Of a stretch of 64,000 nucleotides of DNA, positions 31,205 to 50,054 are shown piece by piece (position 1 is the first letter of the stretch; every line of letters starts with the position of its first letter). Under the pieces are notes generated by a model. It was given only the letters and a program-made list of their open reading frames with translations, had not been told where the DNA came from and searched no databases. The translations under genes and the position numbers were made by a program. This stretch comes from Bacteroidia bacterium. Its GTDB lineage: Bacteria > Bacteroidota > Bacteroidia > JADZBD01. The stretch lies in the NCBI GenBank assembly GCA_020852255.1, contig JADZBD010000018.1, positions 188,842 to 252,841 on the forward strand, given 5' to 3'.

Positions 31205-31331
31205 CCCGTTTTGGCTATCAATCTGTCAGGTTTCCTGCTAAAACAGCATAATTTTCGTCAAAATGTCCCCATTTCAGGAAGGGTATATCATTTGATTCTA
31301 TGGCGTACATTTAACCTACAAACCAAACAAA

Positions 31332-33166: not shown

Positions 33167-33451
33167 ATGAAACGCAACAGTACTCAAACAGAAAAACAAA
33201 CAGTAAAGCAAACATTACTGCTTGAAAATGAGGTAAAAGACCTTATTCTCTGGAACGATGACGTTAATACATTTGAATTTGTAATCGAAACCCTTGTTGA
33301 CTTGTGTAAACACGACCCTATCCAGGCTGAACAATGTACCATGCTGGTTCACTATAGCGGGAAGTGTGCGGTTAAAAAAGGGGAATATTATAAGTTATTA
33401 CCAATACAGAATGCTTTCTCCGAGCGCGGACTTACAAGCACCATAGAATAA
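33167..33451 (+). CDS. clpS: ATP-dependent Clp protease adaptor ClpS
   Basis: A 94-residue adaptor that delivers N-degron substrates to a ClpA/ClpC-type unfoldase. The core is present: ILWNDDVNTFEFVIETLVDLCKH (family consensus LxNDDxxTxxFV), the helix QCTMLVHYSGKCAVKKG in place of the usual HxxGxA, and ERGLTSTIE at the end. The His-x-x-Gly region reads VHYSGKC. A clpC gene lies in the same window at 40.2-42.8 kb. A TAAATTTA promoter-like element (33153-33160) ends six bases before the ATG. The M48 protease gene begins one base after the stop. Confidence 0.9.
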   Translation: MKRNSTQTEKQTVKQTLLLENEVKDLILWNDDVNTFEFVIETLVDLCKHDPIQAEQCTMLVHYSGKCAVKKGEYYKLLPIQNAFSERGLTSTIE

Positions 33452-33452
33452 C

Positions 33453-34262
33453 ATGAAAAAACAATGGGTTCCCCTTCTTCTGACCGGCCTTTTCATTATT
33501 GCTGCGTGCGCACCCGTAACCAAGGTTCCAATAACAAACAGGAAGCAACGGCTCATTTATACCCAGGGCGATATGAATGCGCTCTCCTTTACAAGTTATT
33601 CGGATTTCCTTTCGAAGAACCCAGCGTTACCTGCCAATGACCCTCAGGTGGTTCTGGTTCGTAAGGTGGGAGGAAAGATACAGAAGGCTGTGGAAGAATT
33701 TATGACAGCAGATGGGAAGGCCGACTGGATCAAAGATTACAAATGGGAATTTAATGTTGTCAACGCAGGTGAAGTGAATGCCTGGTGTATGCCGGGTGGG
33801 AAAGTGATGGTGTATACCGGATTGCTCCCGGTAACCCAGGACGAGGAAGGACTTGCTGTTGTGATGGGACACGAGATCGCGCATGCCATTGCCCAGCATG
33901 GCAACGAACGAATGAGTCAGCAATACCGGGCTCAGAATATCGGTAAGGCCGGACAGGCGCTCGTAGGAGTGGGTGCCGGACAAGGTGCAGCAGATCTTTT
34001 CGGAGCCACTTACGGAGTTGGAGCCGGGCTTACCCTGCTGAAGTATTCCCGTACACATGAATCGGAGGCCGATAAACTTGGAGTGGTGTTCATGGCTATG
34101 GCGGGATACGATCCAGAAAAATCAATAGAATTCTGGACACGAATGTCGGCCAATGGTGGAGGCGGAGGGATGCAGATGCTCAGTACGCATCCGAGCGATC
34201 AAAAACGTATTGATGATCTGAAAAAATTTATGCCAAAGGCAAAAAGTTACTTTAAAAAATGA
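33453..34262 (+). CDS. M48 family zinc metalloprotease lipoprotein
   Basis: A 269-residue exported protease of the M48 family, LoiP/BepA-like. The N-terminal segment ends in FIIAACAP, a lipobox giving an acylated Cys. The zinc site is GHEIAHAIAQHGNERM (HExxH), with the third ligand Glu in HESEADKLGVVFMAMAGYDP. A Gly-rich stretch (GVGAGQGAADLFG) lies between. The C-terminal STHPSDQKRIDDLKKFMP is a family mark. It is one base from clpS and overlaps the nfeD gene by ATGA. It would degrade misfolded envelope proteins. Confidence 0.93.
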   Translation: MKKQWVPLLLTGLFIIAACAPVTKVPITNRKQRLIYTQGDMNALSFTSYSDFLSKNPALPANDPQVVLVRKVGGKIQKAVEEFMTADGKADWIKDYKWEFNVVNAGEVNAWCMPGGKVMVYTGLLPVTQDEEGLAVVMGHEIAHAIAQHGNERMSQQYRAQNIGKAGQALVGVGAGQGAADLFGATYGVGAGLTLLKYSRTHESEADKLGVVFMAMAGYDPEKSIEFWTRMSANGGGGGMQMLSTHPSDQKRIDDLKKFMPKAKSYFKK

Positions 34263-43038: not shown

Positions 43039-45600
43039 ATGGCAGAAGGAGAGAAGATTATTGATATTAATATTGAAAATGAGATGAAAACAGCCTACAT
43101 CGACTACTCGATGTCGGTGATCGTCTCCCGTGCTTTACCTGATGTAAGGGACGGACTGAAGCCCGTTCACCGAAGGGTGCTGTTCGGGATGCAGGAACTG
43201 GGCGTGCTCTCCAATCGTCCGTATAAGAAATCAGCCAGAATTGTGGGGGAAGTACTCGGAAAGTATCACCCACATGGCGACACGGCGGTATATGATACCA
43301 TGGTACGGATGGCACAGGAGTGGAGTCTTCGGTATCCGCTGGTAGACGGGCAAGGAAACTACGGAAGCATTGACGGTGATTCTCCAGCTGCCATGCGTTA
43401 TACAGAAGCAAGGCTGAGAAAGATAGCGGAGGAGATGCTGTCAGATATTGACAAGAATACAGTTGATTTCAAACCTAATTTTGATGATTCTCTGGAGGAG
43501 CCTACCGTTCTTCCGTCCAGGATGCCTAATCTTCTGGTGAACGGAGCCAGCGGCATTGCTGTGGGAATGGCCACCAATATGGCTCCTCACAATCTGACCG
43601 AAGTGATCAATGCCACCATCGCCTATATCGAAAACAAGGAGATTCCGGTGACAGGTCTCATGAAATATGTGACGGCTCCTGATTTCCCAACTGCAGGGAT
43701 TATTTACGGCTATGAAGGTGTTCGTGAAGGATATGAAACAGGACGAGGCCGGGTGGTGATCCGTTCACGCGCAACGATTGAGCCCTGGAAGGACCGGGAA
43801 CGAATCGTGGTAACAGAAATACCCTATCAGGTAAATAAAGCCGAACTGATCAAGCGCACCGCAGAGTTGATCAACGATAAAAAGATTGAGGGTATCTCTG
43901 ATATTCGTGATGAAAGTAACCGGGAAGGAATCCGGATCGTGTATGAATTAAAGAAGGATGCCATTGGCAATGTGGTGCTGAACAACCTGTTCAAGCATAC
44001 CAGCCTGCAGACGACTTTTTCAATCAACAATATTGCCTTGGTTGGAGGACGTCCCATGTTGCTGAATCTGAAGGATCAAATTAAATATTATGTAGAACAC
44101 CGGCATGAGGTGGTAATCAGGCGCACCAAGTTTGAACTGGAACAAGCCGAAAAACGCGCCCATATTCTCGAGGGATATCTTAAAGCGCTGGATCACCTGG
44201 ATGAGGTGATCAGACTGATCCGGGAATCTGCCACGCCCCAGGAAGCGCAGGAGGGACTGATAAAGCAATTCGGACTGAGTGAGATTCAGGCGAAGGCAAT
44301 ACTGGAGCTCCGACTGCGCGTACTTACCGGTATGGAGCGCGACAAGATCAAGGAAGAATATGCAACACTGATGGAGTTGATCTCCTTCCTGAAGGAAGTA
44401 CTGGCCAGCGAACCCTTGCGAATGGAGATCATCAAGGACGAACTGGGAGAGATCCGGGAGAAATACGGCGATGAGCGTCGAACGGAACTGGTGCTCGCTG
44501 CCGGCGAGTTCCGGATGGAGGATATGATCGCCGATGAAGATGTGGTGATCACCATTTCCCATATGGGGTATATCAAACGGACGCCACTAACAGAATACCG
44601 GCGGCAGAACAGGGGAGGAACCGGTTCACGCGGATCCTCCACCAGGGAGGAGGATTTCCTGGAACACCTGTTTGTCGCATCCACTCATAACTATATTCTC
44701 TTCTTCACGGAAAAGGGAATGTGCTTCTGGTTAAAGGCATTCGAGATACCTGAAGGAAACAAGACCAGCAAAGGCCGTGCTATTCAGAATCTGGTCAACC
44801 TGCAACCGGGAGACAAGGTGAAAGCCTACATCAATGTGAAAAATCTGACTGACGAATCCTATATCAACAACAATTATATTGTGATGTGTACCCGAAAAGG
44901 TGTGATCAAGAAAACCACACTGGAAGCGTATTCCCGGCCACGCACCAACGGTATTATTGCCATTACGATCCGCGAAGGTGATTCGCTGCTGGAGGCCTGC
45001 ATGACCAACGGACAAAATGAGATCATGCTGGCTGCCAAAGAAGGAAAAGTGTGCCGGTTCAATGAATCCGTAGTGCGCCCGATGGGTAGGGGCGCATCAG
45101 GCGTAACAGGAATGAATCTGGATGAGGAGGAATATAAAGACAACGAAGTTGTGGGTATGATCTGTCTGAACGACAGCAAGACGAATGTGCTGGTGGTTTC
45201 AGAAAAGGGTTATGGCAAGCGTTCCGACATTGAGGAATACCGGATCACCAACAGGGGAGGAAAGGGTGTGAAGACGATTAATATCACTGACAAAACCGGG
45301 AAACTGGTTGCCATCAAGGAGGTAAATGATAAGAACGATCTTATGATCATCACCCGGTCGGGTATCACCATTCGCATGGCTGTGGCTGATCTGCGGGTGA
45401 TGGGAAGGGCAACGCAGGGAGTCCGGCTTATCAATCTCCGGGAAGAAGATGAAATCGGGGCAGTGGCAAAGGTGGACATTGATGAGGAGAATGTGCCCGA
45501 AACGAATGGAGAAAATGGACCCGAAGCGTCTGATCAGGAGAAAGGAGGGGAAGAAAATGGCTCACAAATTGATACTACGGAGGAAAATAGCCCCGAATAA
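43039..45600 (+). CDS. gyrA: DNA gyrase subunit A
   Basis: An 853-residue type II topoisomerase subunit that cuts and passes DNA to introduce negative supercoils. The winged-helix domain carries the catalytic Tyr in [10 protein letters not shown] (Tyr 121) and the quinolone region [10 protein letters not shown], with Thr at the Ser-83-equivalent position and Asp at the 87-equivalent. The C-terminal domain has the GyrA-box-like segment [13 protein letters not shown] and several six-bladed propeller repeats. The tail is acidic ([20 protein letters not shown] onwards). The start is the ATG at 43039. A TPR protein gene follows 12 bases later. Confidence 0.98.
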
Positions 45601-45612
45601 TAACATAAACCT

Positions 45613-46863
45613 ATGAAAAACAACCTTTTGATTGTCGCTCTGATTCTGGCTGGCTTCCCATTGCTTGCACAGCAAAACAAAGTGGTCAGTGCAATCAAGT
45701 ACCTCGAAGAGTACAAACAAACACGGGAAGAGGAAACCTTGCTCAAAGCAAGGGAACGTATCGACACGGCTTGTAATCACCCCGACACACGCGACAAAGC
45801 TAAAACCTGGCACGTGAAGGGGGAGGTCTATTATGTACTATTCAACCATGAATGGGAAAAAATCAAAAAGGCGAGTAAGGAAACCGACGACAAGAAGAAG
45901 AACACGGAAGCTTTTTCCAAAGTAGACATGTCGAATCTTGAGGTAGCACTTACTGCATTCAAAAAATGCCTGGAACTGGATGTAAAGAAGGATTACTCAG
46001 AAGATAAAAAAAGTATCGCCGTAGGGATGCAATTCATTTATGAAAAAGCTGTAAGTCTCTATAACAGCAAAGACTTTTCCAGCGCATCTAAATACTTTGA
46101 AGCTTATTCTGTGGCCAGCAGTTTATATCTCGGAAAAGCCGACACCAACGGTCTGGAAAATGCAGAAGTGGCGGCCGGCTATGCAAAAGAATATGACAGG
46201 GCCATTGGTTTGGCAATGAAACTGATTGGAATGAACGTAAAGAAGGAAATGAATTATGAAAAGATACTGGATTACTATAAACTGAAAAAAGACAACGATG
46301 GACTGAACGCGTGGGTAAAAAAGGGCCGCGCAGATTTTCCCAATAATATCAAGTTCATCATCGAAGAGCTTAACAGTTATATTTCTCAGGGAAAGTCCAT
46401 CGAAGCGCTGGACATCCTGGAACTGGCTATTCAAAAAGATCCGGGCAATGCGGATTTGTACCGGGTAAAAGGTCAAACCTATACCAATCTGGCATTTCCT
46501 GAGGGAGATAAAAAGCCTGCGGATTTCGACAAATACGTAAAGCAAGCTGAGGTAGCACTATTGAAATCCAATGAGTTAAAGCCTAACGATTCCCATATAT
46601 TATACAGCATTGGCGCCTTTTATAATAACTGGGGAGCATTTGTTTTCAACCAGGCCCAAAATGAAAAGGATATGAGTAAATTAGCGGCAGGAGAGAAAGC
46701 TGCGGAAGATATCTTTAAGAAGGCTATCCCGTATCTGGAGAAAGAAATTGAGATTGATCCCACTGATAAGGATGCTTTAAGAGCATTAAAGCAACTCTAC
46801 CTCAAGACAGGGCAGGGGGATTCGGAAAAGTTTAAAAAGGTCGACAATATGCTTAAGAACTAA
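45613..46863 (+). CDS. Exported TPR-repeat protein
   Basis: A 416-residue protein with a signal peptide ending near LLAQQ, then mostly helical, with tetratricopeptide-like repeats around SSASKYFEAYSVASSLYLGKADTNGLENAEVAAGYAKEYDRAIG, KSIEALDILELAIQKDPGNADLYRVKGQTY and PYLEKEIEIDPTDKDALRALKQLYLKTG. It probably acts as a periplasmic scaffold. It lies 12 bases after gyrA and is followed by a terminator, so it may be co-transcribed with gyrA. No enzymatic motif is seen. Confidence 0.85.
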   Translation: MKNNLLIVALILAGFPLLAQQNKVVSAIKYLEEYKQTREEETLLKARERIDTACNHPDTRDKAKTWHVKGEVYYVLFNHEWEKIKKASKETDDKKKNTEAFSKVDMSNLEVALTAFKKCLELDVKKDYSEDKKSIAVGMQFIYEKAVSLYNSKDFSSASKYFEAYSVASSLYLGKADTNGLENAEVAAGYAKEYDRAIGLAMKLIGMNVKKEMNYEKILDYYKLKKDNDGLNAWVKKGRADFPNNIKFIIEELNSYISQGKSIEALDILELAIQKDPGNADLYRVKGQTYTNLAFPEGDKKPADFDKYVKQAEVALLKSNELKPNDSHILYSIGAFYNNWGAFVFNQAQNEKDMSKLAAGEKAAEDIFKKAIPYLEKEIEIDPTDKDALRALKQLYLKTGQGDSEKFKKVDNMLKN

Positions 46864-46898
46864 AGCCATGGTTTTTGAGAAATGTTGATTCTTTCATG

Positions 46899-46930
46899 AC
46901 CCCCGCAGAGATGCGGGGGTTTGTGTTTTA
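46899..46930 (+). terminator. Intrinsic terminator after the TPR gene
   Basis: A nine-pair perfect stem ACCCCCGCA/TGCGGGGGT (46899-46907 and 46912-46920) with a GAGA tetraloop, followed by TTGTGTTTTA. It ends the gyrA-TPR transcript and marks the left edge of the accessory-looking stretch. Confidence 0.85.
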
Positions 46931-46959
46931 ATACGATATTCATGATAATCAGTTAGATA

Positions 46960-46971
46960 TATGTTAACATA
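46960..46971. promoter_or_regulatory. 12-bp perfect palindrome TATGTTAACATA
   Basis: A perfect 12-base palindrome in the noncoding stretch upstream of the winged-helix gene at 47078. It could be an operator half-site pair; no regulator is known. The region is visibly richer in A and T than the flanking genes. Confidence 0.4.
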
Positions 46972-46977
46972 ATGTTT

Positions 46978-47029
46978 ATTATAGGCAACATTCAATTTAT
47001 CTATTGTCAGCTAAGAATTTGCCTATAAT
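46978..47029. repeat. 11-bp perfect inverted repeat around a 30-base spacer
   Basis: ATTATAGGCAA (46978-46988) and TTGCCTATAAT (47019-47029) are exact reverse complements. The second arm ends 48 bases before the start of the winged-helix gene and 36 bases before its possible -7 element. The arrangement fits an operator bound by a dimer or a pair of dimers, possibly the downstream protein itself; that is inference. Confidence 0.5.
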
Positions 47030-47077
47030 TAGCATTGATGTTAAGGAAGTCGCCCTCACACGCTGTATATTTATGGG

Positions 47078-47446
47078 ATGAGGCCAGCAGAGAAATTGGT
47101 TTACGGAAAGGTTAAGAGCGAACTCCGGCCACTCTCAGAAATTCAAAATGAATTAGGTGTCACTTATCAGGAAGTGTACGGGATTGCAATGGACTTGGTG
47201 AAGGAAGGATTAATCAGGGATAAGGTAATAGGAATTGAGACTTATGTATGTAGGGTAATTGAAAAAGACAAGAAGAGTTTGATTGAAAAATATTGGTGGG
47301 TAATTGGATTGCTTGCCTATTTTGGTGGTGTGTATTCTCCAATACTTACCGATATGGCGAGGAAATATACCCTACCACAAAGCATCCAAGAACAAATAGA
47401 ACCCACAAAACAAGACTCAGCACGGTATCGCCCCCGCACTTTTTAG
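47078..47446 (+). CDS. Winged-helix-like protein with one membrane helix, unrecognised
   Basis: A 122-residue protein of no recognised family. Residues 1-60 look like a small winged helix (LVYGKVKSELRPLSEIQNELGVTYQEVYGIAMDLVKEGLIRDKV). A transmembrane helix follows at about 75-95 (YWWVIGLLAYFGGVYSPIL), then a short polar tail ending RYRPRTF. A membrane-bound DNA-binding protein is therefore possible. The base composition is more AT-rich than neighbouring genes, suggesting transfer. A TATATTTA element (47066-47073) ends four bases before the ATG. An 11-bp inverted repeat lies upstream and a long inverted repeat downstream. Confidence 0.55.
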   Translation: MRPAEKLVYGKVKSELRPLSEIQNELGVTYQEVYGIAMDLVKEGLIRDKVIGIETYVCRVIEKDKKSLIEKYWWVIGLLAYFGGVYSPILTDMARKYTLPQSIQEQIEPTKQDSARYRPRTF

Positions 47447-47512
47447 CGGAGTTTTCTTTTCCTTTTTGTACAGGCTTTTCCCTAACTACGTTAGGTCGCC
47501 TTTCAAAAAGAC

Positions 47513-47627
47513 GAATCAAGCCCCATTCCTCGCCTCATTTTGCGAAATACGCAAAACCGTAATCCTCCGTCCTCATAAAAATTCGGACTCTCAGTCTTAC
47601 TTTTCGGCGAGGAATGGGGCTTGATTC
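47513..47627. repeat. Perfect 22-bp inverted repeat with 71-base structured loop
   Basis: The 22 bases at 47513-47534 (GAATCAAGCC... to ...CTCGCC) are the exact reverse complement of 47606-47627. Beyond a seven-base one-sided bulge five more pairs form (TTTCA 47501-47505 with TGAAA 47628-47632). Inside the loop TTTTGCG/CGCAAAA (47538-47544 and 47550-47556) makes a second perfect hairpin, and GACT/AGTC a third. There is no ORF here. It could be a MITE-like element or a structured RNA. The stretch 47447-47763 has no other gene; a CCTAAC/GTTAGG hairpin lies at 47481-47495. Confidence 0.75.
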
Positions 47628-47738
47628 TGAAAAGCAAACATCTTGTTAATTCATTGACTGCCATAACATAATGCAATCCATTATAGGATAAGTTACATGA
47701 AAGTAGTTTACGGTGTATTATGCGGGGTTTCTACGATG

Positions 47739-47746
47739 TATATTTG
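47739..47746 (+). promoter_or_regulatory. -7 element (TATATTTG) of the STAS-like gene
   Basis: An exact TAnnTTTG octamer, 17 bases before the GTG at 47764. It falls inside the longer open frame that begins at 47713, arguing that the longer start is not used. Confidence 0.5.
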
Positions 47747-47763
47747 ATCCATTATATCCTCAG

Positions 47764-48174
47764 GTGAGTAATAGTGTTCTTCTTGCCCATACAAAACTGA
47801 CACTCCGGGCCGATGGTGTTGTGGAGATAGTCTGTGGTGATGAAGTACATTACAAACGCACGCATGTTGAAGAACTAAATAGCGGGCTTGAACAATTACT
47901 GGGGAATTCAAAAGCTTGTTTGCTGGTGTTAGTCGGCAAGCATACTTCGATCTCCAAAGATGGCCGGGAATATTCCGCAACTCCAGAGGCTACCCGCTTT
48001 TCTATTGCAGAAGCCTATGTGCTTCAAAATATGGCTCAACGGATCGTTGGAAACTTCTATATCCGGATGGATAAACCACCTGTTCCTACGCGGATGTTCA
48101 GCCATACGAATGAAGCTGAAAAATGGTTCAAAAAATTCTACGGTACTACCGGTGCCGGCCCAGAAGAATTATAG
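47764..48174 (+). CDS. STAS/SpoIIAA-like protein (DUF7793-type)
   Basis: A 136-residue soluble protein resembling Bacteroidota STAS-like proteins of the DUF7793 type. Features are HTKLTLRADGVVEIVCGDEVHYKRTHVEELNSGLEQLLGNSKACLLVLVGKHTSISKDGREYSATPEATRF and IVGNFYIRMDKPPVPTRMFSHTNEAEKWFKKF. The fold would be an alternating alpha/beta without catalytic residues. The start is taken as GTG at 47764 behind the -7 element; a longer frame from 47713 is possible but includes the promoter. The 3' end overlaps the convergent membrane gene by 29 bases. Confidence 0.72.
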   Translation: MSNSVLLAHTKLTLRADGVVEIVCGDEVHYKRTHVEELNSGLEQLLGNSKACLLVLVGKHTSISKDGREYSATPEATRFSIAEAYVLQNMAQRIVGNFYIRMDKPPVPTRMFSHTNEAEKWFKKFYGTTGAGPEEL

Positions 48175-48439
48175 CAAGAGTACCTCCGCCCGTTATTCCC
48201 AGCAACATGGATGTAAACAATACAACCACGTCCATTACGCCGTCAAATACATTGCTACCCCTGTCCGAAAGAAAATAAAGCCCTGCCCAGGCTGCACCGG
48301 CACATAGCATTGCCCCCAACGTAAATTTCAAAACATTACCCGGACTCCTCCTCCACTTCGGATGTAATTCCAGAATAACAAATCCAACGAATGAAGAGAG
48401 GATGGCCAGCGCCACCAGTACCAGTAAAATAAGAATCAT
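48146..48439 (-). CDS. Small three-helix membrane protein
   Basis: A 97-residue protein of no recognised family, nearly all membrane-embedded. Helices cover about residues 2-24, 36-56 and 66-90 (TSMLLGITGGGTLAIILLG), with a short WRRSPGNV loop. It lies eight bases after the MuiA-like gene on the same strand and its end overlaps the convergent STAS-like gene by 29 bases. The role is unknown. It probably is co-transcribed with the MuiA-like and PorP/SprF-like genes. Confidence 0.6.
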   Translation of the reverse strand: MILILLVLVALAILSSFVGFVILELHPKWRRSPGNVLKFTLGAMLCAGAAWAGLYFLSDRGSNVFDGVMDVVVLFTSMLLGITGGGTLAIILLGRHR

Positions 48440-48446
48440 AGTTCGC

Positions 48447-50054
48447 TCAGAATGACGGGCTGCTGATGGTCCGGTACTTCTTTTTCTTAGGTTTCATGGA
48501 TTTCGGATACTTTACGGAAAAGTTAAAGTTAATGGTTTTCACCTCACCTGGTTGCAGCGTTAGCTTCCATGTTACCTGTCCGGAAGGCTTATCATATATT
48601 CCTCCGCTCAGTTCCGCTATATGGATGTCTATCCTGCTATCGTTATCCATCGGCACCTGATCCGAAATGCTAAGTGTGAGTGTGGATTCCCGGTTGTTTT
48701 TAACTGTAATCTCATATTTGAAGGTTTCCTTCTCATAGTTTCCGATGATCTGCCGGTCGTTACGCTCTGATTTCTTTACCCTGGAAATAGCAATTTTACT
48801 GTCGCGCCCAAGACTTAATTCCAGTGTGTCGGAAATCTCGCGTACATTAATTCTTGATTGTCCGATGTAGGTGCCGTTAAAATAGATGGATGCATTTCCG
48901 GAAACCAGGTTCAGATCCGTCCATCCTACCACTTTTGCAATCAGGAATGCATCCTTATCCATTTTTGGAACAGAAACATACTCATACCGGGCATCCAGCA
49001 TTTTATTATTCACGTCCACCAGGTAAGGCTTACTATCTGAAGGAATCGTATAGGGTAATGCAATATCAAACTCCGCATTGAGCTCATCTACCTCCACCAT
49101 CTTGAACTCCACATTGGCGTTATCTTTCTTTAACTGCACAATCTGGCTTTGCTGGTAGGAATAATTGGCGTTTTCTTCTGATGTTCTCTGCTCGCCGGTA
49201 AAAGACCAATCATCCAGCTTAGGATATTGGGCACCCATCCGCGGATCGGCTGTGGATAGTTTTAATTTAACATTCACCCAGTCTACTCCGGTATTGTTAA
49301 AAATATTTGCCTTATAAAGCATTTCCACCGGCTTCGTTACACCTTCCACCCGGATATCATATTTCGGGGTCCAGCCGGCATCCGCCACCCTGTATTTGAG
49401 GTCAAATCCACAGCTTCCCCCCTCCCCTGCCAGTAATAGAACACTCACCTCTGAACTTGGCGGATTGATGCGTAAGTTTAATTCATTATACTGTTTACTC
49501 AGCAAATCAAGTCGTTGTGACCACCGCACCTCCTGCTTTCCGATCTTGTATAATTCCATATTAATGTCTGTAATCCGTTTGCGGAAGAAATCCGCACTTT
49601 TCTCGGTTTCGGATGCCGGCTGCCCTTTATCCTTTCCAAGGATTGCATCGTTTTTCGAAAGAAGCTCCTTTTCCTGAGTAAGAGCATCCTTCCTGCCACG
49701 CAACAAGGCTAGTTCATCCTTTACCAACTCTATACTATCGCGGATGGGACGGATCTTTGTATTATCGGGAACCGGCTGAAGAAAATTGTTTCCGCTGAAT
49801 ACCGAAAGAATGACGGCGCTCTTCTTATTTATATCCACTATTATGCTTCCCGGATCAAGCTTGGCTGAAAGGTTTGTGAATTTGACCAGGTTCTTTCCCT
49901 TTTGGAGATTCAAATCGGCATGATACCTTAGTTCAGCACCTGTTAAAAACACAGTTACCTGATAAGGTTTTGGCTCGCTGTTTACTTCCGGCACCTCTTC
50001 TGCGAAAGCCATCATGCTGAGCACCAGGAGAATGATCATCGTTACTTTTTTCAT
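48447..50054 (-). CDS. MuiA-family (DUF4139/DUF4140) exported protein
   Basis: A 535-residue protein of the mucoidy-inhibitor A family. A signal peptide ends near AFAEE. The DUF4140 N-terminal domain has VTVFLTGAELRYHADLNLQKGKN and a coiled coil (LVKDELALLRGRKDALTQEKELLSKNDAI). The DUF4139 domain follows (VADAGWTPKYDIRVEGVTKPVEMLYKANIFNNTGVDW and LTLQPGEVKTINFNFSVKYPKS). The name comes from a plasmid gene that alters colony mucoidy; the mechanism is unknown. The start is three bases after the PorP/SprF gene, so the pair is one operon. Confidence 0.88.
   Translation of the reverse strand: MKKVTMIILLVLSMMAFAEEVPEVNSEPKPYQVTVFLTGAELRYHADLNLQKGKNLVKFTNLSAKLDPGSIIVDINKKSAVILSVFSGNNFLQPVPDNTKIRPIRDSIELVKDELALLRGRKDALTQEKELLSKNDAILGKDKGQPASETEKSADFFRKRITDINMELYKIGKQEVRWSQRLDLLSKQYNELNLRINPPSSEVSVLLLAGEGGSCGFDLKYRVADAGWTPKYDIRVEGVTKPVEMLYKANIFNNTGVDWVNVKLKLSTADPRMGAQYPKLDDWSFTGEQRTSEENANYSYQQSQIVQLKKDNANVEFKMVEVDELNAEFDIALPYTIPSDSKPYLVDVNNKMLDARYEYVSVPKMDKDAFLIAKVVGWTDLNLVSGNASIYFNGTYIGQSRINVREISDTLELSLGRDSKIAISRVKKSERNDRQIIGNYEKETFKYEITVKNNRESTLTLSISDQVPMDNDSRIDIHIAELSGGIYDKPSGQVTWKLTLQPGEVKTINFNFSVKYPKSMKPKKKKYRTISSPSF

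Follow-up and report, generated by a model that had tools for sequence, protein, structure and literature searches.

Introduction

Several kinds of element exploit the Xer machinery of their host at dif, the chromosomal dimer-resolution site. In CTX-phi, attP is a pair of inverted dif-like sites whose centres measure 12 and 5-7 bp, and it is active only when folded (PMC4246890). Among the microvirus proviruses of Bacteroidetes, BMV4-6 have a further dif-like site close to one terminus (PMC3091885). The dif (pdif) modules of Acinetobacter consist of small genes between alternating Xer sites, in C and D modules (PMC13141974, PMC12907356). In the literature that we searched, dif modules are described in Acinetobacter only, and Xer-exploiting elements of Bacteroidetes only as complete single-stranded DNA (ssDNA) proviruses.

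Here we describe an islet in a Bacteroidia genome, within a stretch of 64,000 nucleotides analysed as a whole (the window). An earlier note on this DNA held that no known element type fits the locus; elements that exploit Xer at dif do match its layout. As in CTX-phi, inverted dif-like sites with altered centres lie at a predicted dif and may fold in ssDNA into one candidate Xer-type site, and there is no integrase of its own. In contrast to CTX-phi, the islet is ∼0.7 kb long and lacks phage genes, its host is of Bacteroidota type, and the folded pair includes dif itself, with its sites 28 bp apart rather than ∼90 bp. With BMV1-7 and the PhiCjT23-like prophages of Flavobacterium it shares the phylum, possible terminal direct dif-like repeats and, in the case of BMV4-6, the additional site close to one terminus (PMC3091885; PMC9719478), but those prophages span ∼5-8 kb and carry capsid and Rep genes, which the islet does not. 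The resemblance to pdif modules lies in the alternating orientation of the flanking sites, with the gene and hairpin of the islet in a D-type interval (sites 2-3); however, pdif spacers are 6 bp, whereas those of islet sites 2 and 3 are 7 and 9 bp, and in the islet the main dif is involved and no module shuffling is seen.

Results

Site 1 is a candidate chromosomal dif

Site 1 has the 28-bp format of known dif sites, with a 6-bp centre flanked by two arms of 11 bp: on the minus strand, the XerC arm GTTGCCTATAA, the centre TAAACA and the XerD arm TTATGTTAACA. Scored with a matrix whose sole source was the E. coli, B. subtilis and F. alni dif sequences of PMC3025954, this site reaches 19.3, the highest value in the ∼1.01 Mb (∼31%) of the genome scanned for rival sites, where the runner-up scores 16.4; none of 300 shuffles of the islet reaches it. 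The stricter motif NATAA-N5..7-TTATGTTAA has its single occurrence in 792 kb of the genome at site 1, and 20 of the 28 positions are identical to E. coli dif. Site 1 lies at the terminus: summed along all 270,825 bp of this one contig, with the others not joined to it, the GC skew has its maximum at window position 47332, within the islet and 370 bp from the site. The host encodes an XerD-like protein (329.5 bits against an equivalog cut-off of 329.6) and an XerC-like protein (321.6 bits against 335.15).

The other genome of the order compared, and the sole relative from the same family, is G001, whose GyrA is 76% identical. Here a terminator-like hairpin comes after the gyrA-TPR unit, then a dif-like site (AAATTACATAA-TTTATA-TTATGTTAAAT) in the orientation of site 1, and then rluD. 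The dif-like site lies 93 bp after the TPR stop in G001 and 98 bp after it in the window, and in this one relative 16 of the 28 positions are identical to site 1. As the earlier note's suggestion of an accessory unit would have it, the islet is missing after gyrA-TPR in this family relative, although the right flank differs, being rluD in G001 and the STAS-like DUF7793 gene in the window. The GC skew of G001 fits a terminus close to the left contig end, without being decisive. A second islet copy, a free form or a precise empty site with both flanks was not found.

Site 1 is almost certainly dif, as predicted from its top matrix score, the nearby GC-skew maximum, the syntenic site in G001 and the XerC/XerD-like genes of the host. 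This offers a concrete dif candidate in a lineage whose dif has hardly been studied. The features that the earlier note had listed (the terminator, a 12-bp palindrome, an 11-bp inverted repeat, the open reading frame and the perfect 22-bp repeat) are all present. The upstream repeats, which it took to be operator-like, are better read as Xer sites of dif type, located at the replication terminus; the palindrome (TATGTTAACATA, 46961-46972) falls within the XerD-like arm of site 1.

Two further dif-like sites alternate in orientation

Site 2, TTTGCCTATAA-TTAGCAT-TGATGTTAAGG with a 7-bp centre, is the second-best dif match of the islet, and its score is attained by one of 300 islet shuffles. Together with site 1 it accounts for the upstream inverted repeat, which is perfect over 11 bp (46978-46988/47019-47029; equalled in 1% of 1000 dinucleotide shuffles) and extends to 18 bp at 89%. 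As ssDNA, sites 1 and 2 can pair in a single hairpin, with a stem that restores a dif-like duplex (z = -4.4 for the plus strand and -4.6 for the minus strand), and none of 200 shuffles is equally stable.

Site 3, which the earlier note had overlooked, reads TTATCCTATAA-TGGATTGCA-TTATGTTATGG with a 9-bp centre. Its dif score of 9.6 is not significant alone, and the case for it rests on similarity to site 1, to which it aligns locally as a direct repeat (p = 0.044 by shuffling, with the flanking motif chosen post hoc). The pair TAACATAATG..ATTATAGG is confined to sites 1 and 3 in the 3.28 Mb searched; likewise, AACATAATG..ATTATAGG occurs at 46966 and 47665 and at no other place in 3.28 Mb. ATTATAGG itself lies at 46978, at 47022 (an inverted half) and at 47680. 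The site order is D/C, C/D, D/C on strands -,+,-, such that orientation alternates; the centres measure 6, 7 and 9 bp. Sites 1 and 3 are in direct orientation, although site 3 is weak as a dif-like site, and site 3 as the end of an element is weakly supported.

An orphan gene and a single-copy hairpin occupy the islet

The codon score of the islet's open reading frame (0.019) falls where the lowest-scoring real genes meet the highest-scoring shadow frames, and its GC3 is 0.39 against 0.44-0.56 in the long neighbours, so that the frame is probably a genuine, if atypical, gene. The earlier note had described its product as a winged-helix protein with one membrane helix. The protein does look like an HTH domain with a single membrane segment behind it, a plausible but weak reading: there is one hydrophobic segment, the best family hint is TrmB (E=0.04), and Foldseek returns generic HTH folds only, at E above 1. 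No confident family was found in Pfam, NCBIfam, PHROGs, PADLOC or PDB sequence. ToxR/CadC-like tethered winged-helix regulators also combine an HTH domain with one membrane helix (PMC5430869), but the orphan protein has neither a sequence match to them nor a sensory domain, only a short polar tail. FtsK-gamma appears in the Foldseek list among generic winged-helix folds; mimicry of it was rejected, the direct comparison with a gamma sequence giving 1.6 bits.

The protein has no match in phages and no relative among 84,980 species genomes or in viral contigs, and phage and plasmid searches with DNA and protein returned no relative of the islet. Across 395 genomes of the class and 395 of the phylum, the only convincing match is in genome G205; matches in G192, G064 and G426 sit in unrelated longer genes and were discarded. 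The 0.7-kb islet holds no second gene, and no replication, transfer, capsid, recombinase or integrase gene. At a guess, the protein could be a regulator or an immunity protein of the element.

Downstream of the gene lies the 22-bp inverted repeat, the window's only perfect repeat of at least 13 bp with a loop of up to 150 nt. Its fold has z = -8.8 against shuffles, and it is single copy in the genome, allowing up to 3 mismatches. No comparable repeat (arm of at least 18 bp, loop of 20-150) occurs in the remaining 948 kb of the genome or in 194 kb of a relative. The arm pair is absent from the 84,980 species genomes, and at 2 mismatches the arms give only singletons across the 395 class genomes. 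Adjoining it is a nested palindrome, likewise present once in the genome, which the earlier note had missed. An Rfam scan of 45000-49500 found nothing at E up to 1, and long repeats show no enrichment near dif-like motifs in 200 viral stretches. The perfection and size of the hairpin suggest a function in ssDNA or a recent origin by template switching; one guess is a structured single-strand site, for example a replication or packaging signal.

A relative of the orphan protein lies among dif-like sites in G205

G205 belongs to another Bacteroidota family, and its homologue of the orphan protein (41% over 54 residues, E=5e-5) sits in an islet where there are three or four dif-like sites. Of the dif matches in the 72.6-kb contig, the top two (31295-31323 and 33313-33340) both fall in this islet, and a third islet site with a perfect XerD arm is at 33638-33665. 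The islet also contains a 25-bp perfect inverted repeat with a loop of 51, the contig's only one of at least 15 bp, ∼3 kb from the gene homologous to the orphan gene. A methyltransferase and small HTH/membrane-like genes are present as well; the further small genes are winged-helix/membrane-like by eye, and neighbouring ones tried as homologues of the orphan protein were rejected, being alike in layout but not in sequence. The GC skew of this short contig is not informative. From its sequence, the G205 islet looks like a multi-module Xer cassette array. Within it, as beside the 22-bp repeat of the window, there is a nested palindrome, here around a dif-like core at L049 13310-13345 and with no significant fold; ∼85 bp separate it from the long repeat that follows.

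Table 1. Features of the islet, its flanks and compared loci (window coordinates unless a contig or locus is named)
Feature	Position	Strand	Basis or remarks
Intrinsic terminator of the gyrA-TPR unit, left core-genome border	46898-46921	plus	
Site 1, candidate chromosomal dif	46962-46989	minus	dif matrix score, motif, GC skew, G001 synteny
Single-stranded hairpin of sites 1+2	46964-47045	both	folding against shuffles
Site 2, inverted dif-like copy	47018-47046	plus	dif matrix
Orphan gene	47078-47446	plus	ORF, 122 aa
Orphan protein layout (probable)			HTH/winged-helix N-domain ∼1-65, one hydrophobic segment ∼72-90, short polar tail
Nested palindrome CTTTTTG..GGC..CCTAAC-TAC-GTTAGG..GCC..CAAAAAG	47462-47510		folding z = -3.5
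Perfect 22-bp inverted repeat, 71-nt loop with inner 7-bp hairpin	47513-47534/47606-47627		repeat search, folding
Site 3, degenerate dif-like copy, proposed right end	47661-47691	minus	likeness to site 1
STAS-like DUF7793 gene, right flank	47713-48174	plus	E=3.9e-17; true start perhaps GTG 47764
Other DUF7793 genes of the genome	C16:200302-200661, C16:221046-221372, C16:12730-13053, C20:74153-74395, C10:74513-74737		
G205 islet	L049 8970-14320 (G205:C4:28970-34320)		dif-like sites 8972(+), 11296(-), ∼13314(+), 13639(-)

Discussion

The earlier note's view of the islet as an accessory, compact unit fits, since it is absent from the G001 locus, its repeat arms have no other occurrence in the genome and its protein has no family; the description as AT-rich is only partly right, with G+C of 36-45% against ∼39-49% nearby. 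Because the repeats can be read as dif and two degenerate copies around an orphan gene and a hairpin, the islet is, on balance, probably a minimal or decayed Xer-integrated element, or a dif module, at dif. The ∼700 bp from site 1 to site 3 would then be an element that entered through recombination at dif by the host XerC/XerD, with the gene for one orphan DNA-binding/membrane protein and the long hairpin as cargo and the degenerate Xer sites 2 and 3, which it may itself have brought, as bounds. A circular form, possibly single-stranded, would have moved into the chromosome by recombining with dif; the single-stranded route is hypothetical. The outcome would be one good dif with a 6-bp centre and altered-centre copies that recombine poorly, so that the insert would now be stable. 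The 7- and 9-bp centres depart from standard 6-bp sites, which argues against an element, as do the weakness of site 3, the lack of replication, capsid and recombinase genes, the failure to find a second copy, a free form or an empty site with both flanks, the differing right flank in G001, the viral stretches in which long repeats show no enrichment, and the shortness of the G205 homology, with the repeat there ∼3 kb from the gene. As regards replication and transfer functions, the islet is at best a remnant or a satellite.

The locus may instead be an ordinary intergenic region of the terminus, a doubtful reading that nevertheless deserves weight: site 1 would be dif, sites 2 and 3 would be chance or local AT-rich duplications with no Xer insertion, and the orphan gene and hairpin would merely have accumulated where sequence changes fast. 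The poor score of site 3, a direct-repeat p of only 0.044, the lack of a mobility gene and the differing right flank in G001, which indicates that the area rearranges, are all as such a region would have them. However, the site 2 score arises in just one of 300 shuffles, the paired motif is limited to sites 1 and 3 in 3.28 Mb, and the only relative of the orphan protein likewise lies amid dif-like sites near a long repeat. We regard as improbable a model in which the winged-helix protein binds the upstream inverted repeat to regulate itself and perhaps the DUF7793 gene too. A probable HTH domain and the placing of ATTATAGG upstream of both genes, with a third half-copy before DUF7793, would suit such an operator, but these letters also make up a dif-like site close to the GC-skew maximum, and at the corresponding position G001, which lacks the gene, carries a dif-like site.

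The 22-bp repeat could also be a separate MITE-like or IS-end remnant of 115 bp that landed in the islet. Its terminal repeats are perfect and AAAAG lies 2 bp outside each end as a possible 5-bp duplication; yet AAAAG is of low complexity, the genome holds one copy, the arm pair is missing from the 84,980 species genomes and the class-genome matches are singletons, leaving this origin improbable too. Scarcely credible is an integron gene cassette with an attC hairpin: a small orphan gene does precede a hairpin, and GTTRRRY occurs at 46952 and 47490, but there is no same-strand RYYYAAC partner and the genome has no integron integrase above cut-off. A multi-copy repeat was rejected, the islet repeats being single copy in the genome.

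If the islet is indeed a small Xer-integrated unit, a sub-kilobase, dif-bounded pairing of an orphan gene with a hairpin would add to the kinds of element using the host dimer-resolution machinery, and such units could account for the clustering of small unclassifiable genes at termini. It seems unlikely, if conceivable, that the islet represents a novel kind of very small Xer-dependent cassette in Bacteroidota, moved as folded ssDNA and with G205 as a multi-module example. This kind would be defined by alternating dif-like sites, a (winged-)HTH/membrane gene and a perfect hairpin, with no replication or integration genes of its own.

ACGCTGTATATTT and ACGATGTATATTT, at 47060-47072 and 47733-47745, stand upstream of the islet gene and of DUF7793. 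The likeness of TATATTTG to the Bacteroidetes -7 promoter element suggests that DUF7793 starts at GTG 47764. A shared promoter region for the two genes was tried and rejected (p = 0.044 strict, 0.44 permissive). DUF7793 (STAS-like) genes number six in this genome and five in the relative, and most of them stand alone, in varied contexts; none of the other DUF7793 loci adjoins an islet-type gene. The genome also encodes a 397-aa tyrosine recombinase (L048 7446-8639, contig C9), which is near the XerA and integron integrase families, below their cut-offs, and has a possible HARP-like N-terminal domain.
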